Assembly: GCF_028687955.1 (NCBI RefSeq)
Contig: NZ_JAQTZC010000003.1
Location: forward strand, 1-54,146
Length of the DNA: 54,146 nucleotides
Reading direction: 5' to 3'
Source of the DNA: Acidocella sp.
Lineage (GTDB): Bacteria; Pseudomonadota; Alphaproteobacteria; Acetobacterales; Acetobacteraceae
A program made the position numbers and the translations under genes. This document shows positions 13,349-40,685 of the stretch, one piece after another; position 1 is the first letter of the stretch, and each line of letters begins with the position of its first letter. The notes beneath the pieces are model-generated. The model had not been told where the DNA came from and searched no databases. It saw only the letters and a list, made by a program, of their open reading frames with translations.

Positions 13349-15036
13349 TGGTTGCGGTGATTCACGATGGTGCCGTTGGTGCCGGTATGCACCACGGGCT
13401 TGCTGGCATTGCCGGCGGTGGTGGTGGTGACGCTGCTGCCCGGTGGCAGACCTTTGATGTTGATCTCCAGCGTATGCCGCCCGCCACCAGCATCATCGCC
13501 CAGGCCCTTGTTAAACCCGGCGGCGAGGCCGCCAAAGCGGCCACCGCGATTGGCCGTTGCGGCAGGCGAATCCGGTGCGGCGCCCCCGCCATTGCCGCTA
13601 CCCTCGGCCCATTGCAGCCCGGCATCGAGCTTATCGATGGTTGCGATGATCGGTCCGAACACTTTATCGAACTCGCTGCCAATGCTGGAAAAAATCACCT
13701 GCAGGCCAGCGTCAAACTCTTTCCAATGGTCCCAAAGCTCATACACCGCGGCCCCCGCCGCCACCGCCGTGAGCACCATCACGCCCAGCGGGTTGGCATC
13801 CATCACCAAATCAAGCGCCGCCACGGCATCCTTGAACGAGGAAATCTCCGGCACCAGCTCGGCAAAGCCGATTCCCAACTCCGCCACCGGCCCGAGTGTG
13901 AGCGCCGCCATTTTGGCCCCCATGCCGCCGAGGGTTAGGCCAATTTCCAAAACCGGCGCCAGAAACGACGCAGCCATCACACCACCAGCGATTTCCAGAA
14001 CCGTTTTTAATCCCCCAACATCATCAATCAATTTTTCAATATGGTGGATAAAAACTTTAGCTTCGGCATTGATCTTTTTAAAATCAATGTCGTGAATATC
14101 ATCACCAATCGTGGAGATAACATCCTTGAGATCGAGCGCGATCAAATCCCGGTTGCTCGCGACGAAGCTGGCGAAATCAGTCAGCAGCGGCGCCATCACA
14201 GGCGCAAGTTTCGCGCTGATCTCGCTGGTCAATCCACGGATCGCCAGCTCAGCCTCGTTCCATGCCGCTTTAAATTGCTCCAACCCCTCCAGATCACCAT
14301 CACTGAACGAATAACCAAATTTATCAAATTGCGCCTGCATCTCCGCCATTTTCGCGGGTCCTTCGGTGAGGAAGGGCAGCAAATTAACACCGCTGCGCTC
14401 AAACAACTGCATCGCCATCGCGGCGCGCGTGGCAGGGTCTTTTGTATCCGCGAAGGCTTTTTCAAGCTGCGGCATCACATCTGCGGCGGATTTTACATGG
14501 CCGGACGCATCTTTCAGCGATATTCCCATTTTTGAAAATAACGATGCGGTTTGTTTATCCAATCCCATCGCGGCGCGCCCCATGCGCACGCTGAGCATTT
14601 CAAAGCCCTTGTTGAGATCGTCCACACCCACGCCGGCTTGTTGGCCCGCGTATTGCAAACTTTGCAATTTCGGCACTGCAATGCCGCTGATTTTCGAAAT
14701 GTTGTCCAGCGCCTCGGCAGCTTCGGATGTGGCGTGCGCCATTTCCAGCAACCCCGCCACGCTGCCCGCGCCGCCAATCGCCCCCAACATCGGCAGCACC
14801 TCGGCGAGGCGGCCACCCATCTCCTGAATACTGCCGCCCAGCTCAGCGAATTTTGATTTCGCCTCGCCTACATGCGAGGTCAGCTCATGCCACAGCTTGG
14901 CGCTGGGCGACATATTGAGCTTGCGCTGGGTGCTGGCTCCGATATTGCCCAGCTTGCCGAGCTTATCCTCCAACCCCACAATCGGGGCGGAGAACTTATC
15001 CAGCACGGAAATAATGGTCTCGTAAGTTTTCGCCAC
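13345..15036 (-). CDS. Tail tape-measure protein
   Basis: This 563-aa protein starts at GTG 15034-15036 behind GGAGG; the G is shared with the stop of the upstream frameshift extension. Residues ~30-330 are helical/coiled coil and carry the phage tape-measure minor-tail pattern (ALDNISKISGIAVPKLQSLQ, RMGRAAMGLDKQTASLFSKM, AAMAMQLFERSGVNLLPFLT). Hydrophobic segments lie near residues 345-440, and a Gly-rich basic tail follows (GGAAPDSPAATANRGGRFGG). It sets tail length; at roughly 1.5 angstroms per residue this implies a tail around 80 nm. Confidence 0.92.
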   Translation of the reverse strand: MAKTYETIISVLDKFSAPIVGLEDKLGKLGNIGASTQRKLNMSPSAKLWHELTSHVGEAKSKFAELGGSIQEMGGRLAEVLPMLGAIGGAGSVAGLLEMAHATSEAAEALDNISKISGIAVPKLQSLQYAGQQAGVGVDDLNKGFEMLSVRMGRAAMGLDKQTASLFSKMGISLKDASGHVKSAADVMPQLEKAFADTKDPATRAAMAMQLFERSGVNLLPFLTEGPAKMAEMQAQFDKFGYSFSDGDLEGLEQFKAAWNEAELAIRGLTSEISAKLAPVMAPLLTDFASFVASNRDLIALDLKDVISTIGDDIHDIDFKKINAEAKVFIHHIEKLIDDVGGLKTVLEIAGGVMAASFLAPVLEIGLTLGGMGAKMAALTLGPVAELGIGFAELVPEISSFKDAVAALDLVMDANPLGVMVLTAVAAGAAVYELWDHWKEFDAGLQVIFSSIGSEFDKVFGPIIATIDKLDAGLQWAEGSGNGGGAAPDSPAATANRGGRFGGLAAGFNKGLGDDAGGGRHTLEINIKGLPPGSSVTTTTAGNASKPVVHTGTNGTIVNHRNQ

Positions 15037-20285: not shown

Positions 20286-20942
20286 TTATTTGCGGGCAGA
20301 TTTGCCAGCGTTCATGATTTGCGCCACCAGCGCATCCGCGCTGCCCGGCGCCGGGCCGGCGGCGGCGCCGGCATTCACCGGCGGCACCACGCCGTGCATC
20401 ATCTGCCCCAGGCGCCCGCGCGCGGTGCCGGCGCTGCGCAGGGCCGCCACGGCTGCCGAGCGCGAGAGCGAGGTGTTGAAGGCCAGCTCGCAAGCCAGCG
20501 CGACGTTGGTGCTGGCGGATTTGTCGCGGAAGATAGCGGCGCAGCGGGCACGCTCGCGCAGGCGGGCGGCGCGGGCCTTGGACTTGGGCTTCATCTCGCG
20601 GTTGTCCGAGGTATCGTCGCCCTCGTCGTCATCGCCGGCCTGATCGGGATCGGCGTTAGGGTCCGCATCGGGGTCCGCGTCCGGGTCCGCGTTAGGGTCC
20701 GCATCGGGGTCCGCGTTAGGGTCCGCATCGGGGTCCGCGTTAGGGTCCGCATCGGGGTCCGCGTCCGGGTCCGCGTTGGGATCGTTCGGCTTGGTGTCAG
20801 GATCATCCTGACCTTCCACCGGCGCGGGCTTGGCCGGTTTGGCCGGTGCCGGAGCGGGCGCGGGTGCGGCGGCGCGGGTGCCGAGGCCCAGGAAATGGGC
20901 AAACGGGCTTGTCGCCGCCAGGAGGGCGGTTTTTGTCGTCAT
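20286..20942 (-). CDS. Putative capsid scaffold with acidic DP repeats
   Basis: This 218-aa protein starts at ATG 20940-20942. Residues ~25-55 are Pro/Ala/Lys rich. Residues ~55-100 are a tandem run of Asp-Pro-Asp/Asn-Ala units encoded by 24-bp DNA repeats. Residues ~115-185 (RARCAAIFRDKSASTNVALA, CELAFNTSLSRSAAVAALRS) resemble the helical scaffold segment found at the C-terminus of lambda gpC-type proteases. It lies between protease and decoration protein, where lambda Nu3 is found. I infer a stand-alone scaffold, split from the protease. Confidence 0.65.
   Translation of the reverse strand: MTTKTALLAATSPFAHFLGLGTRAAAPAPAPAPAKPAKPAPVEGQDDPDTKPNDPNADPDADPDADPNADPDADPNADPDADPNADPDADPDADPNADPDQAGDDDEGDDTSDNREMKPKSKARAARLRERARCAAIFRDKSASTNVALACELAFNTSLSRSAAVAALRSAGTARGRLGQMMHGVVPPVNAGAAAGPAPGSADALVAQIMNAGKSARK
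20645..20785. repeat. 24-bp tandem repeats encoding an acidic DP linker
   Basis: Units of GCGTTAGGGTCCGCATCGGG plus GTCC recur with variants GCGTCCGGGTCC across ~140 bp inside the scaffold-like gene. On the coding strand they give repeating DPDADPNADP. Repeat number is likely to vary between related phages by slippage or recombination. Confidence 0.85.
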
Positions 20943-20957
20943 CGTAATCTCCAATCG

Positions 20958-27223: not shown

Positions 27224-27727
27224 TCAGTGGCGCATCTCTGCACCAGAGCCGTTTTCATAGCCGTTCGTGAGGCGTTTGAGAAGCCCCTCGTAAATTATTT
27301 TTATCCCCTGCGCGTGCCTCCGCTGCACGCCCTTATAATCCATGTGCATCACCTCACCCAGGCGCCGCCAAGGGTACATGTGCACGCCGCTCAGCGGATG
27401 CACCATCAACCGGCATTGCACGATCCGGCGCACTTCCACCTTGCTTTCCGGGATCAACAGCACCCAATCGGGCAGCACTTCGTCCATCACGCGAATATCT
27501 TCCATCGTGGGGGCGGGTGCGCGCAGAACCGGCGCGTTGGTCCAGCTGAATGCGTCCCAGATGCTGCGCACGATCTCATGCTGCCTTTGTGCCAGCCCTG
27601 GCTTGTACCCCTTGTCAGGCATCGCCAGAAGCGTCTTTCCGGCACGTTCCAAACGGGCGATAATGTACTCCTCGCTGGCGGTCACAGAAACACAATCGGT
27701 CACAGGGCGGTCACAGCTATTTGTCAC
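27224..27727 (-). CDS. DUF6362-like phage protein
   Basis: This 167-aa protein's first ~20 codons overlap the GGTCACAG iteron cluster, so the true start may be downstream. The core (VRSIWDAFSWTNAPVLRAPA, LPDWVLLIPESKVEVRRIVQ, VHPLSGVHMYPWRRLGEVMH) resembles a small phage family with a predicted HTH, often near terminase/replication genes (from memory). It may bind DNA at the adjacent repeats; that is inference from position. Confidence 0.6.
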   Translation of the reverse strand: MTNSCDRPVTDCVSVTASEEYIIARLERAGKTLLAMPDKGYKPGLAQRQHEIVRSIWDAFSWTNAPVLRAPAPTMEDIRVMDEVLPDWVLLIPESKVEVRRIVQCRLMVHPLSGVHMYPWRRLGEVMHMDYKGVQRRHAQGIKIIYEGLLKRLTNGYENGSGAEMRH

Positions 27728-27944
27728 AGTTATTACCTTTATATATCAATAGTTTAGTAAAAGCTGTGACCCTGTGACCGCCTTAACCTGCTACAAAGAA
27801 AAAAACAGTGGTCGAAAACCGTTTTCTTAGCGCGTTCGTTTTTAGGGGTAACAGGGTCACAGCAGCCAAAATCAAGGCGTTAAGCGGTCACAGCTCCGGT
27901 CACAGGGCGGTCACAGCCTCTTTCAAAACGGTCACAGGTCACAG
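27680..27944. repeat. Iteron cluster GGTCACAG, candidate phage origin
   Basis: Twelve copies of the octamer are present, one missing its first base. Direct: 27680, 27698, 27709, 27723 (GTCACAG), 27855, 27886, 27898, 27909, 27930 and 27937. Inverted (CTGTGACC): 27764 and 27772. The inverted pair flanks an AT-rich stretch (27730-27762) of almost pure A/T. The cluster fills the gap between the replication ATPase gene and the DUF6362-like gene. Repeated initiator sites next to an unwinding element, beside a helicase-type gene, are the hallmark of a phage or plasmid origin. Confidence 0.75.
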
Positions 27945-27945
27945 G

Positions 27946-29697
27946 TTAATCTTCGGAATGGCCATCTATATCGGCCCAGGAAATCCAGATCGCCTTTCCA
28001 GGCCCGATTTCACTTACCCTCACGTTCTCACGCGCCTTTTTCGCCGACGGCAATCGCCTCAGCTCCATAATCCAGCGCCCACCGTCATAGGGCGTACCTG
28101 CGAAGATCGCTTTCAGGGGTTGCCACCTGTCATCAATCCATAAACCGTCACCCTCGGCCAATCGCGGCACCGCGCGGCCCTGGCGGTCCACCAGGTCGCA
28201 GGCGCGCACCGGACGAATCCCCCAGCGCGATAATACCCGCACATACTGCTCGCGCAATGCGGTTTCTTCCGATAGGTCGCCGAAACATAATCGGAGAAGC
28301 TTGGCGATTGAATCCTCATCCGTGCTGCGGTCCAGTTTCACCACTTTGGAGAGCAGCATCGCCAGTACGGCGCGCGGCGCGCTATCTTGCCGCATCTCTT
28401 CCGCACCCACGATAAAACCAGCGACCATCTTCACCAATTGCATCGCCGTAATGGCATCGGGCAGGCCATTTTCGGCCAGCACCCAATAGCCGGCCAATAT
28501 CGCGCCGAGCTGGTCCATCTCGCGCGCCACGCAGCCTGCGGCGCCCAAGGCGGTGCGGAATGCGCCCAGCGAATCCTTGTAGCGGTTAAATCCCTGCAAC
28601 GCCCTGGCAAACAACGCAGGCCCCGCCGCCTTGGCGCGCGCGATGGCGGCATTCATCGGCGCGGTGTTATCCTCGCCCTCATCCGGCCGGAGCAGCTCCA
28701 CGATAGCAAAGCGCGAGCGATGCTGCGGCTGCATCTCCGGCGGATTGATGCTGGCCATGATCGCGCTGCCGACAACCTCAATCGTCCGCACGCCGCCGTC
28801 CACCGTGCCGCGATGGCCTTTTGTGCCCTCGCCGCTGCTTGATGAGAGCACCATATCCAGCAGCACCTGCGCGCCCTGCCCACCGGCACGGTCTGAGCTT
28901 TCATCAATGAAAATCGGCAGCGCCCGCCCGGCCACCGCGCCCTCCACGCCGGCCTTGCTGGTCTCGTTGGTATAATGGCTCAGTGGCACCATGCCGTGCA
29001 GCAGCTCAAGCAATTTGCTCTTGCCGGAGTTGGAACCGCCGCAGATAAACCCGTTGGCGCGCCAGCTCAGCGCCGCGGCGAGATATCCCTGGCCAACCAG
29101 GCCGAGCGCGATGATCTCGCCGCCCTCGATCGCCAGCTTCCAAAAATTGCGGATATCATCGGCGAAATCCCGCGCCACCAGCACGTCCGCCGGTTTTGCC
29201 GCTGGATAGGCCATGCGCGGCGCGGTGGCGAAGATCTGCCCGGCCACTTTCTGCCCGGCGGGGAATTTTTCACCCTCGATGAAAAGCGCATCGCCGCAAT
29301 GGGCCACCGGCACGCCGTTCTCGCCCAACCAAACCCCAGGCCGGCGGATGATCACATGCTCGCCGAACATCCCCGCCTCGCGGCAGGCGGACATCAGATA
29401 CTCGCATGCTTTCGAGATTTTGAAGCCGTTAGGCTGCCCCTCGGGCGTAAAAGCCTTAAAGCTGCGCTCGAGCCATGCCATATCGCCCAAAAACAGCGCC
29501 GCCAGCTCTGCCCGCGCGCCCAGCTGGCGAGCCGACAAATCGCGCTTCTCGCCAACGATGTTGAGGAACCAGAACTTGCCGTTAAAATGCCCCAGCGGCG
29601 TTACCGGGCATGCAAGCTCTGTTTCATCTTCTGGCATCTGGTTATCCATGTTGCGCTTGCGCCTTGCCTGGGCGAGCGAAACCGGCGCCGCGCTCAT
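27946..29697 (-). CDS. Phage replication P-loop ATPase/helicase-like protein
   Basis: This 583-aa protein's ATG (29695-29697) overlaps the upstream stop (ATGA). Residues ~50-190 are an N-terminal domain (FLNIVGEKRDLSARQLGARA, ACEYLMSACREAGMFGEHVI) of the DUF927-like type. Walker A is GGSNSGKSKLL (~residue 230) and Walker B is PIFIDESSD (~275). An arginine-finger candidate lies in QHRSRFAIVELLRPDEGED. It probably opens or unwinds DNA at the iteron cluster immediately downstream. The C-terminus is a small winged-helix-like region (DGLWIDDRWQPLKAIFAGTP). Confidence 0.78.
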   Translation of the reverse strand: MSAAPVSLAQARRKRNMDNQMPEDETELACPVTPLGHFNGKFWFLNIVGEKRDLSARQLGARAELAALFLGDMAWLERSFKAFTPEGQPNGFKISKACEYLMSACREAGMFGEHVIIRRPGVWLGENGVPVAHCGDALFIEGEKFPAGQKVAGQIFATAPRMAYPAAKPADVLVARDFADDIRNFWKLAIEGGEIIALGLVGQGYLAAALSWRANGFICGGSNSGKSKLLELLHGMVPLSHYTNETSKAGVEGAVAGRALPIFIDESSDRAGGQGAQVLLDMVLSSSSGEGTKGHRGTVDGGVRTIEVVGSAIMASINPPEMQPQHRSRFAIVELLRPDEGEDNTAPMNAAIARAKAAGPALFARALQGFNRYKDSLGAFRTALGAAGCVAREMDQLGAILAGYWVLAENGLPDAITAMQLVKMVAGFIVGAEEMRQDSAPRAVLAMLLSKVVKLDRSTDEDSIAKLLRLCFGDLSEETALREQYVRVLSRWGIRPVRACDLVDRQGRAVPRLAEGDGLWIDDRWQPLKAIFAGTPYDGGRWIMELRRLPSAKKARENVRVSEIGPGKAIWISWADIDGHSED

Positions 29698-30362
29698 GCC
29701 GCCACCAATATCTGCGGGCCGTCATAGGCGCGCTTGAGCTTTTTTTGCAGCGCCTGGCCGTGCGCCACGTCATCGGTGACAATTCCACCCGCGCACTGGC
29801 GCAGCCAATGGATATTCTCTTCTTCATCGCCCAGCAGCACCACGCCCGCGCATCCCGCACGAAACCAGGCATCCACCCCGCGAAACACCCGCACCGGCGC
29901 ACCGGCATCAGCCGGATGCTGCGGCGAGCCGAGCACGCAGGTATTGCGCAGCAGCGTGCCGTAGCATCGCGCGAAATCCAGCGAGTACGCCACCAGATCA
30001 ATAATATCCGGCCCAAAAACCGCGTTGGCGTAGCATTCCAGCGCCGGGTCATCCTCCACGGCGTTTTTCCACTCCTGCCAGTCGAGCGTGCCGAGCAGCG
30101 CCAGCTTGCGGGCGGAATACCCGGCGCGCACCGCCAGCAACCACACCCAGCTTTTCTGGCTCGCTTCATCCGGCCTGGGGTGAAGCTGCCAGATCACCGC
30201 GCCATCATCAGCCTTTTCCACCACCACCTGCGCCGCCACGGCGAGCGAGGCGAACGCTAGGGTGGGCGCATACACCGCGCGGCCATGCGGAAAGCGCCCG
30301 GCCTGCGCCTGCAGAACAAACCGCCCGCGGCACCACGAGATTATCCGTTCGAGGTCTTCCAT
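29694..30362 (-). CDS. Replication-region protein, possibly TOPRIM-like
   Basis: This 222-aa protein starts at ATG 30360-30362 (TGATG with the upstream stop). It has AVYAPTLAFASLAVAAQVVV, YSARKLALLGTLDWQEWKNA and a C-terminal alpha/beta segment, AWFRAGCAGVVLLGDEEENI then IVTDDVAHGQALQKKLKRAY. That segment has a hydrophobic strand followed by acidic residues, like a degenerate TOPRIM or primase half. It is co-transcribed with the ATPase. Function not established. Confidence 0.55.
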   Translation of the reverse strand: MEDLERIISWCRGRFVLQAQAGRFPHGRAVYAPTLAFASLAVAAQVVVEKADDGAVIWQLHPRPDEASQKSWVWLLAVRAGYSARKLALLGTLDWQEWKNAVEDDPALECYANAVFGPDIIDLVAYSLDFARCYGTLLRNTCVLGSPQHPADAGAPVRVFRGVDAWFRAGCAGVVLLGDEEENIHWLRQCAGGIVTDDVAHGQALQKKLKRAYDGPQILVAA

Positions 30363-31129
30363 CACGCACCCCGCCCGCGTTGCAGCTCGAATAGCGGCAG
30401 ACCCAAGGCCACGCGCTTGGTGTTAACCACCTTCATGTCCAGATCGCTCTCGAACCCGTTGCAAATCCCGCGTTGCGCCGCCCAGGCGCGCGCTTCGTCA
30501 ATGGAGACGCGGATTTTATGGCCGCTCAGCGGCTTGGCGGCGGCAGGCGGCGGCGCGGGCGCTGGCGCGGGCGCTACCGGCGGCAGCGGCGCCACAGGTT
30601 CCGGCGCTTTGGCAACCACCTCCGGCACGCTCGCCACCACCAGCGGCGGTTCCGCAACCACTTCCGGCACTTTGGCAACCGCCAGCACACGCGGCGGCAG
30701 AATTCCTTCAAGGCGGAGCTTGTGGAATTTAACAGATACGGCATTCGCGGTGGTCACCGGCGGCCCCGCCAGGCAATTCACCTCACTCATGATTGTATGC
30801 CAGTCATGCCCTTCCGCGCGCATCTCAATCAGCAGCGCCACACGGTCATCAGACCATTTATCGCGCGGATGCTTCGCCCCTGGCTGCGAAAAGACCGCCG
30901 GAGCTTTTGGCTCCGGCGGCAAGTTCAGGGAGGAAACGCCAGCAGCGGGCGCGGCGGGAGACTGGCCGTTGGAGGCAACCTCCGCATCCGCGCCGTTCCG
31001 TGGCGCTGGCCCCACGGAATTTGGTTGCACCGGAGCCGGACCATGCAGGAGCGACGCCGCCATGGATTTAAAAAGCAATTCCGCCGCCAGCCCAAACTCC
31101 AGCCGCACATTAACATTCACCTCGATCAT
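30362..31129 (-). CDS. GcrA/Myb-like HTH protein with Pro/Ala-rich linker
   Basis: This 255-aa protein starts at ATG 31127-31129, overlapping the GcrA-like stop (ATGA). Residues ~90-145 (KWSDDRVALLIEMRAEGHDW, HTIMSEVNCLAGPPVTTANA) form a SANT/GcrA-type trihelical HTH. A Val/Pro/Ala-rich linker (~150-205) follows. A conserved C-terminal tail (GHKIRVSIDEARAWAAQRGI, LGLPLFELQRGRG) suggests a second small domain. It is probably a DNA-binding regulator working with its neighbour. Confidence 0.6.
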   Translation of the reverse strand: MIEVNVNVRLEFGLAAELLFKSMAASLLHGPAPVQPNSVGPAPRNGADAEVASNGQSPAAPAAGVSSLNLPPEPKAPAVFSQPGAKHPRDKWSDDRVALLIEMRAEGHDWHTIMSEVNCLAGPPVTTANAVSVKFHKLRLEGILPPRVLAVAKVPEVVAEPPLVVASVPEVVAKAPEPVAPLPPVAPAPAPAPPPAAAKPLSGHKIRVSIDEARAWAAQRGICNGFESDLDMKVVNTKRVALGLPLFELQRGRGA

Positions 31130-31557
31130 GCCGCACTCCTCACTGTCGCTAATTCTTGATGTTGCCTGCAATACGGTTTGCCGGGCACGCCGGGCGCCTC
31201 GCAAAACCTAAACTCCGGCTTGCGCGGGTCGCCAAAGGGCCAGCAGCACGGCCTGGGGCGCATGGTGCTGGCCACAACTTCAACCGGCGGCATGGCGCGC
31301 ACCGCCTCCACCGGCACGGGGCGGCGAACGCGCTCCACCATTGTGCCAGGAAGCCGCTCGATCTTTTTAACCGGCGCCCGCGCACCATCGCGCTTTATCG
31401 GGCTGCACCGCGCGGGCAATTTCAGCCGGTGCGCTTTGCCCAGCACGGAATTCTTGCTGGTCCCCATTTTTTCGGCGATTTCGCTGCCCGTAAGCCCATC
31501 AGCCCAAAAAGCGCGCAACCTGCGCACATTGTTTTCATCATCCCAGTTTATGCTCAC
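31126..31557 (-). CDS. Phage-encoded GcrA-family cell-cycle regulator
   Basis: This 143-aa protein has both GcrA ends. The N-terminal HTH is NWDDENNVRRLRAFWADGLT, GSEIAEKMGTSKNSVLGKAH, RLKLPAR. The C-terminal Cys/His motif is CCWPFGDPRKPEFRFC then PGVPGKPYCRQHQELA. Host GcrA is an alphaproteobacterial sigma70-associated activator acting at methylated GANTC promoters. A phage copy could steer host or phage promoters with the cell cycle. Overlaps its downstream neighbour by ATGA. Confidence 0.9.
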   Translation of the reverse strand: MSINWDDENNVRRLRAFWADGLTGSEIAEKMGTSKNSVLGKAHRLKLPARCSPIKRDGARAPVKKIERLPGTMVERVRRPVPVEAVRAMPPVEVVASTMRPRPCCWPFGDPRKPEFRFCEAPGVPGKPYCRQHQELATVRSAA

Positions 31558-32021
31558 GGCCGCGCCTCATCCGCGCGGCCCACATATTCCAGCGCCTCGC
31601 GGGAGGCATCTATCAGCTCGCGCAGATCATCCTGCAGCTTGCGGCGCTCCCGGTCCGAGATGCGCCGGTGCGAGAGCGCGGTGGAGATATCGCCGAACAA
31701 CACCCCGGCATCCTGGCCGATCCGAGCCATCAGCACCGCAAGGTCGCTCTTGGCGCGCAACGGTTCCACCACCACCAGCGCACGGCCTTGCATCGCCGCC
31801 AGGGCGCTGGTGGCGTGCGGGCGGCCCGAGATCAACTCCAGATCAAGCACCACATCCAGCGGCGGCATCTTGTCAGATTCCACATTGCCGTAATCGGAGA
31901 GATGGCTGGGGCTAACGCGCGTGCAGCTCGCCGCGCAGGCGAGGCCGCCGAGGTCCGCCACCACCCGCTTGAACGCCGTTTTCAAACCGTTCCGCATCTG
32001 CAAATCGCACTGGCGCGTCAT
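31554..32021 (-). CDS. CII-like phage regulatory protein
   Basis: This 155-aa protein's ATG (32019-32021) overlaps the upstream stop. The N-terminal part (NGLKTAFKRVVADLGGLACA, SHLSDYGNVESDKMPPLDVV) has the look of the phage regulatory CII/CP76 family with an HTH that reads 'RVS.S.LS.Y.N'. The C-terminus is a basic helix (RRISDRERRKLQDDLRELID). It probably controls early transcription or lysogeny choice. Confidence 0.6.
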   Translation of the reverse strand: MTRQCDLQMRNGLKTAFKRVVADLGGLACAASCTRVSPSHLSDYGNVESDKMPPLDVVLDLELISGRPHATSALAAMQGRALVVVEPLRAKSDLAVLMARIGQDAGVLFGDISTALSHRRISDRERRKLQDDLRELIDASREALEYVGRADEARP

Positions 32022-35217: not shown

Positions 35218-36894
35218 ATGGCCCCCAAACCCAAACTAACGCCTGAGCAAATCGCCGCCATCGCCGCGCGCCTGGAGGCGGACCCGTCGCTCACCGCCGC
35301 CGCCGAGGCGCAGGCCGCCGGCGTGCATGAGGCCAGCCTCTCGCGCGCGCTGGCGAAACACCGCGCCACGCTGCCCGGCGCTGCTCCTGGCGCGTCCATC
35401 GTGGAGCTGCACCATGCATCTCTCCATCCCTCGGCCTATAACCCGCGCAAAACCTTTGATGACGACAAAATCGAGGAGCTGGCGGCGAGCATCGCCAAAA
35501 GCGGGTTATTGCAAAACCTTGTGGCGCGGCCTGCCTTTGCGCCAGGGCAATTCGAGATCATCGATGGAGAACGCCGCTGGCGCGCGATCAAACTGCTGAT
35601 TGAGCGCAACGGCCATGCCGATCTCATCCCGGTCAAAATCATCGAGACGGATGCCGCAACACACCAGATGCTCAGCCTGCTGGCCAATCTGCAGCGCGAG
35701 AACGTGCCGCCGCTGGAAGAGGCGGACGGCATCGCCGCCCTCCACGCCATGGACCCGCAGACATGGACCACGGCCGAGATCGCCGCCAGCATCGGCCGCA
35801 GCCAGCGCTATGTGCAGCACCGTCTCGCGATCGCCAACAATCTGGTCGTTCCCGCCAAGGTGCTGCTGCGCCGGGGCTATATCACCATAGAGGCAGCGCG
35901 CCTGCTCGCGGCCGAGCCGCACACAACGCAGCTTACCGCGCTGGCGGATTACGATTGCGCCGAGATCACCGAGGCCACCGAGTTTGACGATGCCGAGACT
36001 GATTACACCATCACCACCGAGGAAATCGCAGGCGCCATCTCCTGGATACACCGCCAGGCCGAGCAAGAGAAAGCCGACGCCGCCAAAGCCGCGACCCCGC
36101 CGCCCGAGGCGCAGATGCGCCTGGATGCCCCCGGCCGCGCCGAGCGCGCCGACGCCGGGGATGCCGGGGATGACGATGCCCCCACCGCCGAACCCGCCGC
36201 CACGGCACCCGCCGAGGATGAACCCGCCGCCGAGCTGTTCACCAGGGCGCATATCTACCACGCCCACCAGCGCAAAACCCAGGCGCTGCAACGCGCCGTG
36301 GCCGAGGCGCACACCCATGCAATGCGCCTGGTTATCATGGCGCTGCTGGGTCCCCAGAGCGTGGTGCTCCTGAGCCGCAAATACGGATGGAGCGATGACA
36401 TGCCCGAGGATGACGAGCAGATCGAGAACATCATCACCAGGCATCTCGCGGGCGTGGAGCCACCCGAATATCTGGGTGAGACCAAGCAAGAGCTGGCTTT
36501 GTGGAAGCACCTCTGCGGGTTGGAGGTGCTGGCGCTCACCGAGCTGTTCGCCGCCGTGGTGGCGCGCCAGGTGCATACGCCATCCGGCCACCAGGCGTTG
36601 CTGGGCGATAACCCCCTGGCCGAGGCCGTGGCCAAAACCCTCGGCGTGGCCGGTGATGAGGCGGACCACGGGCTGACCATCCGTGATGAGCAGGACCTCG
36701 CCGGCCTGCGCAAACCCTTGCTGCTGGCCGTGGCCGAGGCCACCCACACCGCCGGCATAACCTCCAGCACCCGCACGGCGGACGTAACCAGCGGCATCCT
36801 CGGGCGCCTGCTGAACCACGACTACATCCTCCCCACGCTGAAATTCGCCAGCACCAAGGCGATAGAGAGCGCGATTAAGAAGATGGTGGCGTGA
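35218..36894 (+). CDS. Phage ParB-like protein, large
   Basis: This 558-aa protein's residues ~1-50 carry an HTH-like start (TPEQIAAIAARLEADPSLTA). Residues ~60-160 are the ParB N-terminal domain: LHPSAYNPRKTFDDDKIEEL, SIAKSGLLQNLVARP, FEIIDGERRWRAIKLL. Then comes LLANLQRENVPPLEEADGIA and an HTH, TTAEIAASIGRSQRYVQHRL. The C-terminal ~250 residues are Ala/Glu rich and phage-specific. No ParA accompanies it, so a transcriptional or DNA-organising role is more likely than partition. Confidence 0.85.
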   Translation: MAPKPKLTPEQIAAIAARLEADPSLTAAAEAQAAGVHEASLSRALAKHRATLPGAAPGASIVELHHASLHPSAYNPRKTFDDDKIEELAASIAKSGLLQNLVARPAFAPGQFEIIDGERRWRAIKLLIERNGHADLIPVKIIETDAATHQMLSLLANLQRENVPPLEEADGIAALHAMDPQTWTTAEIAASIGRSQRYVQHRLAIANNLVVPAKVLLRRGYITIEAARLLAAEPHTTQLTALADYDCAEITEATEFDDAETDYTITTEEIAGAISWIHRQAEQEKADAAKAATPPPEAQMRLDAPGRAERADAGDAGDDDAPTAEPAATAPAEDEPAAELFTRAHIYHAHQRKTQALQRAVAEAHTHAMRLVIMALLGPQSVVLLSRKYGWSDDMPEDDEQIENIITRHLAGVEPPEYLGETKQELALWKHLCGLEVLALTELFAAVVARQVHTPSGHQALLGDNPLAEAVAKTLGVAGDEADHGLTIRDEQDLAGLRKPLLLAVAEATHTAGITSSTRTADVTSGILGRLLNHDYILPTLKFASTKAIESAIKKMVA

Positions 36895-38406: not shown

Positions 38407-38753
38407 TAACCCTGGAGCAAGCCGCCGCCTATTTCAGCGTCTCTCCGCGCAAATTGCGCGAGCTGGTGCGCCAGCATCACCCAAGGGTGTTGCGTCCTGG
38501 GCGTGATCTGTTGTTCGATGCTCAGGCGATCAACGATCTAACGGAGGCGATGCGATGCCACTCAATTTGCGCAAACGCGGTGAAATCTGGCACGCGCGGG
38601 GCACGGTCCGTGTCGGCACGGACTCAATCCACATCGCCGAATTCAGCACAGGAGCGCGTTCGCGAACTGCTGCGGAAGCCATCGCCGGAGAACGAGAAGC
38701 CCAGATCCGCCGCGAGGGGCTTGAGGGCGATCGAGGGCGGCAAGCGCGCCTGA
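38391..38753 (+). CDS. Excisionase-like HTH protein
   Basis: The first ~57 residues (TLEQAAAYFSVSPRKLRELV, HPRVLRPGRDLLFDAQAIND) are a MerR/excisionase-type winged helix (helix_turn_helix_17). The frame then runs 63 more codons in Ser/Arg-rich sequence overlapping the integrase start at 38555 by ~200 nt. The useful protein may be shorter. It is placed directly before the integrase, as xis genes often are. Confidence 0.65.
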   Translation: MPDRPLTLEQAAAYFSVSPRKLRELVRQHHPRVLRPGRDLLFDAQAINDLTEAMRCHSICANAVKSGTRGARSVSARTQSTSPNSAQERVRELLRKPSPENEKPRSAARGLRAIEGGKRA

Positions 38754-39637
38754 CTATATCAGACTGTTTTGCCGCCTACCTCACCCGCCCCGGCGGCATC
38801 AAATCCTACGACAAATCCCGCATCGATGATTTCAACGAGCACCTCGGCCCCCGCAAGCTGGCCGAGGCATCTGCCGCATGGGCCGAATGGGTCGCCACCC
38901 GCGGCGCCAAAATGGCGCCGGCCACCGTCGCACGCTGGCGCGCTATTTTCATGGCAGCCCTGCGCACCGGGACTGAGGCGCTGGATGCCCCGCTGCCCAA
39001 AATTCCCGCCGTCACCGGCAAAACCGAGCAGACCCTGCGCACCCTCACAGACCAGGAGCGCACGGCCCTGCTGGCCGCGTACAACCCCGCCGCCGCGCCG
39101 GTGTTCCTCACCCTCGCCTACCAGGGCCTGCGCACGCAGGAGGCGCTGCGGCTAGACTGGCGGCATGTGTTCTGGGTCAACGCCGGTAGCCTCTACATTC
39201 CCCGCAGCAAATCGGGCAAACCCCGCAGCGTGCCGATGCACGCCAAGGTGCGCGCCAGGCTATACCAAATCTGGGAAGCCGCCGGCAAACCCGAATCCGG
39301 CCCCGTGTTCCTCTCCAGCCGCCGCGAAGCCGCCCAAACCCCCGAGCAAGCCACCCGCGCCGGCAGCCAGCAGCGCCCCCGCCTGCCCTATGCCGACACC
39401 AAGGGCAAAGGCGGCAACCCGCTTAAACGCGCCCACCAAACCGCATGCAAAGCCGCCGGCGTGCAAAACTTCCGCATCCACGACTGGCGCCACGACTGCG
39501 CCGCCCGCATGGTCATGGCCGGGGTGGACATGCTCACCATCATGAAACTCTTCGGCTGGAGCGACCTGCGCATGGTCCAAATTTATGCCAGCATCACCTC
39601 AGACCACATGGCCGAAGCCGTGCAGAAAATTGCTTAA
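38555..39637 (+). CDS. Tyrosine integrase
   Basis: This 360-aa site-specific recombinase has a basic N-terminal arm-binding region (~1-65), a SAM-like core-binding domain (~66-150, CFAAYLTRPGGIKSYDKSRI) and a catalytic domain. Arg193 is in YQGLRTQEALRLDW, His309/Arg312 in IHDWRHDCA, Trp335 in LFGWSD, and the nucleophile Tyr344 in IYASIT. It integrates at the tRNA-Val 3' half; attR lies ~970 bp downstream. Confidence 0.95.
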   Translation: MPLNLRKRGEIWHARGTVRVGTDSIHIAEFSTGARSRTAAEAIAGEREAQIRREGLEGDRGRQARLTISDCFAAYLTRPGGIKSYDKSRIDDFNEHLGPRKLAEASAAWAEWVATRGAKMAPATVARWRAIFMAALRTGTEALDAPLPKIPAVTGKTEQTLRTLTDQERTALLAAYNPAAAPVFLTLAYQGLRTQEALRLDWRHVFWVNAGSLYIPRSKSGKPRSVPMHAKVRARLYQIWEAAGKPESGPVFLSSRREAAQTPEQATRAGSQQRPRLPYADTKGKGGNPLKRAHQTACKAAGVQNFRIHDWRHDCAARMVMAGVDMLTIMKLFGWSDLRMVQIYASITSDHMAEAVQKIA

Positions 39638-40610: not shown

Positions 40611-40658
40611 TGGTGGGCGCGACAGGGATTGAACCTGTGACCCCCACCATGTCAAGGT
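40611..40658. repeat. attR core
   Basis: The 48 bp are identical to 2074-2121. They form the 3' half of the functional tRNA-Val gene and were contributed by the phage. Confidence 0.93.
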
Positions 40659-40685
40659 GGTGCTCTACCGCTGCGCTACGCGCCC
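40611..40685 (-). tRNA. tRNA-Val (GAC), prophage integration site
   Basis: The 75-nt cloverleaf runs from GGGCGCG (40685) to an encoded CCA (40611). The acceptor stem GGGCGCG pairs with CGCGCCC. The anticodon stem is CCACC/GGTGG with loop TTGACAT, so the anticodon is GAC (40651-40653). The T-arm GGTTCAATCCC is canonical. It lies on the same strand as, and ~205 nt after, dnaE. Confidence 0.97.

Follow-up and report, generated by a model that had tools for sequence, protein, structure and literature searches.

What is a dense array of octamers doing directly behind a replication ATPase gene in an Acidocella prophage, and which protein reads it? The window analyzed here is the whole 54,146-nucleotide stretch of contig NZ_JAQTZC010000003.1 (Acidocella sp.), and an initial annotation of it had proposed that the array is an origin to which an initiator binds. 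On the basis of the repeats' density and orientation, their adjacency to a helicase gene, and relatives that keep the architecture while the octamer changes, we conclude that 27680 to 27945 is very probably the replication origin of the prophage. It would be of the type known from SaPIs and PICIs, placed directly 3′ of a self-loading initiator helicase that reads the octamers. Comparisons of sequences strongly support this reading of a prophage origin recognized by the adjacent helicase.

The Array Lies in a Complete-Looking Prophage

The window contains an element bounded by attachment sites:

2074-2121 and 40611-40658: exact 48-bp direct repeat, attL/attR, 3′ part of tRNA-Val
40611-40685, minus strand: tRNA-Val
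38555-39637: integrase gene

From these att repeats, the prophage spans about 2074 to 40658 (∼38.6 kb). It looks like a complete, contractile-tailed prophage, since it has its own integrase, portal, head protease, tail sheath, tape measure, baseplate, and terminase subunit genes; because it carries these genes, the element is not a PICI, a candidate that we considered and rejected. The contig has no terminal repeat that would mark it as circular. Elsewhere in the prophage, an ORF at 20286 to 20954 (minus strand) carries a long DPNADPDAD repeat stretch, and in the early region a GcrA-like cell-cycle regulator gene (31126 to 31557, minus strand) adjoins a CII-like regulator gene (31554 to 32021, minus strand).

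Exact copies of GGTCACAG number 13 in the whole window, where 0.88 are expected and the largest count in 100 shuffles was 4. Eleven of them fall within 27680 to 27944. The remaining two, at 2098 and 40635, sit within the 48-bp att repeats, the 3′ part of tRNA-Val, which explains these strays. The array comprises the following elements:

27680, 27698, 27709, 27855, 27886, 27898, 27909, 27930, and 27937 (plus-strand starts): direct exact copies of GGTCACAG
27764 and 27772: inverted exact copies of GGTCACAG
27723-27729: twelfth repeat, GTCACAG
27847-27854, no strand given: degenerate iteron GGTAACAG, one mismatch
27855-27944, minus strand: iteron block A, six CTGTGACC in the sense of the ATPase gene (plus-strand starts 27855, 27886, 27898, 27909, 27930, and 27937)
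27764-27779, plus strand: iteron block B, two copies in opposite orientation
27680-27729, minus strand: iteron block C, in the sense of the ATPase gene, three CTGTGACC plus one CTGTGACA, extending into the next ORF at its annotated 5′ end
27730-27763: AT-rich core, 34 bp, 82% AT, putative melting site between GTCACAG at 27723-27729 and the inverted copies
27744-27756, minus strand: exact IHF consensus match TAAACTATTGATA, inside the AT-rich core
27870-27882, minus strand: second exact IHF consensus match TAACGCCTTGATT, between block A iterons

The twelve copies in 265 bp that the initial annotation had counted, one of them lacking its first G, thus correspond to 11 exact octamers and one GTCACAG, and its ten direct and two inverted repeats beside an AT-rich stretch were found again in the same numbers, with the core now placed at 27730 to 27763. 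The cluster also abuts the P-loop ATPase gene as described there, its last iteron ending at 27944 and the ATPase stop codon occupying 27946 to 27948. A genome-wide count, which the annotation had suggested, gave 42 octamers in the 2.15-Mb host genome, 11 of them in the cluster, and 27 occurrences of the reversed pattern, so that in the rest of the genome the octamer stays close to its background frequency. The window holds four strict IHF-consensus matches, two of which lie inside the array, and the host has four HU/IHF-family genes.

Searches of the array region for promoters, terminators, and Rfam families found none. The cumulative GC skew of the window has no extremum at 27.8 kb, which counts against an origin there. 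With a single hand-chosen boundary, the mean GC skew is 0.000 from 15 to 27.7 kb and −0.109 from 27.7 to 40 kb, a shift that is seen although minus-strand genes lie on either side (window positions 15000 to 40000) and to which we attach little weight.

The Adjacent Gene Encodes a Putative Initiator Helicase

Read along the minus strand, the end of the helicase gene is followed by the array and then by a DUF6362-like ORF; upstream of the helicase gene lies a further ORF:

27946-29697, minus strand: putative initiator helicase, 583 aa, P-loop AAA+-like core and C-terminal domain, PHROG_21086/phrog_35358 (“DNA primase”)
29694-30365, minus strand: 223-aa ORF upstream of the helicase gene, no family match, in the position of the CHC2 primase of some relatives

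The AlphaFold2 model of the window helicase has a pLDDT of 89.6, and its best PDB match in Foldseek is the SCCmec protein Cch (5dgk; E 1.5e-8, 11 to 12% identity, with a TM-score of only 0.41 to 0.46). Further matches include the African swine fever virus (ASFV) PrimPol, the C-terminal region of NrS-1, the SaPI5 primase-helicase (7ola), MPXV E5, and MCM. Sequence similarities are mainly short and confined largely to the P-loop. No family of the DUF927 or D5/Primase_Cterm kind was matched when the window helicase was compared with Pfam; among its relatives, there was one DUF927 match below the cut-off and a DUF5906 match in 2 of 63. A Rep_3/RepA iteron plasmid origin was rejected, because the products of the array-adjacent genes matched no plasmid Rep family in Pfam, PHROGs, or NCBIfam and the iterons are 8 bp long and arranged in inverted blocks. 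The model of the C-terminal domain has a pLDDT of 90. Its possible winged-helix fold is a reading taken solely from the order of helices and strands, because the isolated domain matched no PDB entry at E ≤ 0.001, and we keep it as such rather than as an identification.

In some relatives (Synechococcus phage MinM1 and a Phaeobacter plasmid), the helicase is separate and encoded shortly behind a CHC2 primase gene, and in others it is fused to the CHC2 primase. No similarity was detected between the 223-aa upstream ORF and the CHC2 primases of four relatives with a primase in that position, and a CHC2/Toprim ancestry of this ORF is unsupported (hhalign probability 0.4%). No primase was recognized among the window neighbors tested.

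Arrays Recur Behind the Helicase Gene with Different Words

The orthologous loci L016 and L017 (Acidocella metagenome-assembled genomes, 56 to 59% identical) and L009/L010 (viral contigs, 65%), have arrays in the same place. Their words are CTGTGAAC in L016, TTGTGACC in L017, and CTGTAAC[C/G] in L009, and among these four each word is confined to its own locus: CTGTGACC occurs 11 times in the window, CTGTGAAC nine times in L016, TTGTGACC nine times in L017, and CTGTAAC[C/G] 11 times in L009, with zero occurrences of each in the other three. The comparison of orthologues proposed in the initial annotation, which asked whether repeat number and phase are kept while the sequence diverges, shows the same block layout with the octamer replaced in all copies at once.

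The wider family was scanned by a de novo search for clustered 7-mers around the helicase gene. The score threshold of 10.5 was chosen after simulated nulls (ten per locus, maximum 10.4) and was then fixed for a later set. The first set began with 110 helicase-bearing loci and was reduced to 84 at <93% identity and to 83 with ≥800 bp of room on the 3′ side; L011, L182, and L027 to L030 (duplicates), three loci with <420 profile positions matched, 17 rows at ≥93% identity to a kept row, and one locus with <800 bp of 3′ room were dropped. A significant cluster lay within 1 kb 3′ of the helicase gene in 31 of the 83 loci, within 1.5 kb 5′ in 2, and elsewhere in 7, and 43 had none. For 31 of 40 clusters to fall in a 3′ zone that averages 17% of the locus corresponds to p of about 5e-17. 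Even in the 43 negative loci, the best subthreshold window was in the 3′ zone in 19, where about 7 would be expected from that 17%; L018, L020, and L026, in which iterons are visible by eye below the threshold, were counted as having none. The lytic phages ZRG1, PBb001, and MQ-4 have no visible array just behind the helicase gene.

For the later set, with the method and threshold fixed, 299 genomes within the same order were searched and 32 regions of other genomes were taken. Twenty-nine were testable after removal of L211 (the same as L017) and of L224 and L240 (no 3′ room), with the near-identical pairs L217/L218, L219/L220, and L225/L226 retained. The cluster was in the 3′ zone in 22 of the 29, elsewhere in 0, and absent in 7. 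Across the 53 positive loci, there are 35 different heptamers, and every locus has copies in both orientations. The initial annotation had named related phages that replicate normally without the cluster as evidence against an origin, and on this point the outcome is divided: the 3′ cluster recurs in both sets, yet no significant cluster is present in 43 of the 83 first-set and 7 of the 29 later-set loci, so that some members of the helicase family appear to use none.

The word itself is not diagnostic. A scan of viral contigs for three CTGTGACC returned 73 stretches (1 to 14 kb each), and because none of the 73 carries a window-type helicase, CTGTGACC alone marks nothing and was rejected as a signature of this helicase system. 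Many of these stretches are one-orientation runs with spacings in multiples of 12, which we read as coding repeats. A few resemble real origins beside other primase-helicases, as in L148 (Prim-Pol/VapE) and L109 (Prim-Pol/AAA_25). The array of L148 (5825 to 6051) has CTGTGACC in both orientations beside the Prim-Pol/VapE protein and an integrase-like ORF, the same word next to a different initiator family. Tandem CTGTGACC runs such as these could suggest that the window array, too, is a chance or repeat-expansion product without function. We give this explanation next to no weight: the array in the window is irregularly spaced, of mixed orientation, and mostly intergenic, homologous arrays with different words occupy 53 loci, and the later set, in which the 3′ zone again held the clusters, makes an artefact very unlikely.

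Array Architecture Includes Oriented Blocks and IHF-Like Boxes

Within the 53 positive loci, the iterons form alternating oriented blocks, with 166 orientation changes vs. 210 ± 9 when orientations were permuted within loci, and iterons of the same orientation are mostly spaced 8 to 12 bp apart. The polarity of the motif toward the AT-rich core varies between subfamilies. For the gap between inverted iterons and for the IHF boxes, the 22 later arrays were analyzed along with 34 first arrays, namely those of the 31 positive loci and those of L023, L103, and L060, three loci with a cluster that is not in the 3′ zone. A gap of exactly 34 bp, as in the window, occurs 12 times in 11 of the 34 first arrays and five times in the later 22. 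These counts vary somewhat with the choice of 7-mer frame and with common descent, and some gaps of this length are not AT-rich (for example, 53% AT in L102).

Using the IHF consensus given in PMC10380432, we found 11 strict matches in 8 of the first 34 arrays (0.54 expected) and 4 matches in 4 of the later 22 (0.18 expected), so the majority of arrays have no strict match. A relaxed pattern, which unlike the strict consensus was picked after inspection of the first set, gave 28 matches in 20 of 34 arrays (1.8 expected) and 15 in 15 of 22 (0.75 expected).

In iteron plasmids, extra iterons serve copy control. By analogy, the locus may combine an origin with an autoregulatory or copy-control site, where binding of the helicase, or of some other initiator, to the extra block A would limit initiation or transcription; the six iterons of block A, 84 bp from block B (start to start), would be the counterpart of those extra plasmid iterons. 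However, a third, gene-side block is also present in loci with other downstream genes, and we regard such a dual role as possible but rather unlikely.

The DUF6362-like Protein Is Not Consistently Linked to the Iterons

The helicase is common to all loci by construction of the set, and therefore the other neighbor of the array was the one to test:

27224-27727, minus strand: DUF6362-like ORF (phrog_6836), not needed for iterons in relatives

Its DUF6362 match is weak (21.4 bits, below the Pfam cut-off of 31), and its phrog_6836 match has an E of 7e-14. A second, clearer DUF6362 gene (E 6.7e-11) is present elsewhere in the host genome (G000:C117, 1607 to 1876).

The array could be an operator, with the DUF6362-like protein binding the octamers to regulate its own operon and the AT-rich core serving as the promoter. 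In favor of this, the gene's annotated 5′ end is in contact with four iterons (with the GTG start at 27727, three lie within the first codons and the fourth lies across the start), the AT-rich core comes just before the gene, and the window shares with L016 and L017 a DUF6362-like gene behind the array. Against this, DUF6362 comes directly after the array in only 3 of 31 first-set and 5 of 22 later-set positive loci (8/53), and 45 of the 53 have none there, including the orthologue L009, in which the gene after the array is not recognizably DUF6362. One further locus, L242, has DUF6362 about 1.6 kb from the array, and profiles with 3 and 33 members found these same nine loci and no additional ones.

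The converse comparison used 30 DUF6362 loci from a search that matched 51 of 289 genomes. None has a window-type helicase within the fetched 2 to 3.3 kb, a span beyond which a more distant helicase would escape. Twenty-seven of the 30 lack a cluster within about 1.5 kb. The remaining three do have one, located at the 3′ end of another type of primase-helicase gene (two of the DUF7146-Toprim and one of the Toprim-AAA_25 type), which shows that the array layout is broader than the window helicase family. A search for sigma-70-like promoters in 27550 to 28100 found none, a weak test with 0.4 expected by chance. In the L213/L214 pair described below, moreover, the iteron word switches along with the helicase tail, and the downstream ORF looks HNH-like from its sequence. 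We thus consider an operator improbable, and on the 8/53 linkage together with the 27 of 30 cluster-free DUF6362 loci we reject DUF6362 as the probable iteron binder. The ATPase, rather than the DUF6362-like protein, is likely the reader of the iterons.

Mixed-orientation arrays at the 3′ ends of DUF7146-Toprim or Toprim-AAA_25 genes were seen in L273 (3051 to 3340), L274 (3109 to 3353), and L275 (5355 to 5513), those in L273 and L274 lying inside the primase-helicase ORF as called.

A Natural Swap Points to the Helicase Tail

Genome G901 contains two window-type prophages, L213 and L214, whose helicases agree at 405 of 409 core positions, at 76 of 76 positions in the region 430 to 500, and at 55 of 64 in the tail, and whose iteron words are ATGTGAC and TGTAACC, respectively. 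Across the 3 kb that lead up to the ORF end, their DNA identity is 0.93 to 1.00 per 100 bp in all but the final 100 bp. Over the next 350 bp it is 0.42 to 0.71 in 50-bp bins, followed by a bin at 0.88, and thereafter it is again 0.93 to 1.00 to +2.2 kb and 0.85 to 0.98 beyond. The divergent segment of about 350 bp covers the last ∼33 helicase codons and the whole array. The simplest reading of this one event in one genome is that these codons and the array were exchanged as a single segment. A locus from another genome, L212, has the word of L214; its tail matches L214 at 60 of 64 positions vs. 51 of 64 for L213, and its core is about equally distant from both (378 and 375 of 409). These data support the view that the tail of the helicase is the repeat reader and part of a cassette exchangeable in one step. 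In the window, the corresponding segment is as follows:

27949-28047, minus strand: last ∼33 codons of the helicase gene, putative iteron-specificity tail, holding N558 and G567 (from the L213/L214 swap and a post hoc residue association)

The residues reading the octamer would then be encoded within the last ∼100 bp of the gene, beside the array, so that one exchange could replace the specificity along with its cognate sites. Consistent with this, when the core is controlled for, iteron similarity is associated with the C-terminal region (partial Mantel 0.20, p 0.001), whereas no association with the core is left once the C-terminal region is controlled for (−0.01); these values, like the Fisher values, ignore shared ancestry. 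In a post hoc comparison, asparagine is present at position 558 in 6 of 9 loci with GTGA-type words vs. 1 of 44 others. The association holds for the L213/L214 and window/L009 contrasts; the exceptions are L017, L015, and L031, which are of the GTGA type without Asn, and L242, which has Asn without GTGA.

The swap also bears on a further alternative, that the array is a parS-like partition centromere for the ParB-like protein encoded in the prophage at 35218 to 36894. Apart from the presence of that gene, the evidence goes the other way: in relatives the array goes with the helicase gene and is exchanged together with its terminal codons, the octamer is not a palindrome, and an AT-rich core with IHF-like boxes is an origin feature. 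A centromere is accordingly very improbable.

Returning to the origin read by the helicase, we put at about even the chances of a broader proposal: that specificity is a transplantable cassette (the last ∼33 codons plus the origin), that word turnover tracks its exchange or retuning and would let co-resident prophages escape cross-recognition or origin-directed attack, and that the tail contains a partly decipherable code, such as Asn558 with GTGA-type words. An origin-directed nuclease would require the C-terminal domain in stand-alone form, and no such copy was found among ORFs of at least 60 residues in the loci searched for it. In another genome (G1020), the co-resident loci L225 and L226 match at 395 of 396 core and 64 of 64 tail positions and share the same iteron word; co-residence therefore does not force different words.

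Proposed Mechanism and Comparison with Known Systems

In the mechanism that we propose, the helicase would bind the octamers through its C-terminal end and assemble on the oppositely oriented blocks on either side of the 34-bp AT-rich core. Two helicase rings would probably form, helped by IHF bending, and these rings would melt the core and start replication, as the Rep proteins of SaPIs and PICIs are believed to do. Lambda provides a phage precedent, as its initiator O binds iterons beside an AT-rich stretch at ori-lambda; in lambda, gene O itself contains the iterons and the helicase is a separate, recruited protein, whereas the window iterons lie after the helicase stop codon. The alpha protein of phage P4, a multifunctional helicase whose C-terminal domain recognizes short iterons, is a lead only.

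The closest layout is that of the PICI origins: according to passages of PMC6092414, they directly follow the initiator gene on its 3′ side and have an AT-rich region between two sets of iterons. Like the Rep-ori modules of EcCICFT073, SaPI1, and SaPIbov1 as presented there, the window origin is immediately 3′ of the initiator-helicase gene and its iteron sets flank an AT-rich region. It differs in its carrier, which is not a satellite island but a prophage encoding a portal, tail sheath, terminase, and integrase of its own, and in its helicase, which by sequence belongs to another family. Further differences are the 35 words in 53 loci and, in part of the loci, a third block of iterons, IHF-like boxes, and an inner gap that is repeatedly 34 bp long. 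The same passages state that no other known bacterial replicon shares the PICI layout (PMC6092414); our results run against that statement and would extend the layout to complete-looking prophages with a different helicase family. Among the matches listed in a search of open-licence PMC articles excluding preprints, none concerned iteron origins of the window helicase family, as judged by title or the start of the abstract.

Cch and the SaPI5 primase-helicase are similar to the window helicase in structure, Cch being the best match and 7ola a further one, although the low identity and TM-score given above and the different mobile element set Cch apart. In the sections of PMC7581432 that address it, origin recognition is assigned to the C-terminal domain in SaPI Rep and Cch2, and that of Cch2 binds repeats downstream of its gene, as we propose here; the putative Cch2 origin differs in having three 5-nt iterons. 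PLE satellites of Vibrio cholerae offer a parallel to the swap: in the portions of PMC8263062 that treat them, the DNA-binding part of the initiator RepA covaries with the origin, RepA/ori modules are swapped, and an origin-directed nuclease is a selective force. RepA differs as a RepA_N initiator with three ∼30-bp semi-palindromic iterons, and its N-terminal part covaries with the origin (PMC8263062), whereas in the window family the part exchanged is the C-terminal tail that adjoins the origin. The fast origin turnover seen here would fit origin-directed attack of the kind described for PLE (PMC8263062).

The 53 initiator-origin pairs with their 35 words form a natural series for studying how a self-loading helicase recognizes and melts its origin. 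Within it, the L213/L214 pair reduces the search for specificity to about 33 residues, and the long-standing question of how initiator and origin change specificity jointly thereby becomes directly testable with natural proteins.

Other Repeats near the Helicase Gene

Two further kinds of repeat were observed on the 3′ side of the helicase gene. TAGTACA repeats of alternating orientation lie about 2658 to 2789 bp from the gene end in L057 and about 2263 to 2315 bp from it in L107, and look like operators of another regulator. Tandem repeats with a 26-bp period are present in L071 and L104 (6 and 7 copies, respectively), about 3.3 to 3.5 kb 3′ of the helicase gene end.
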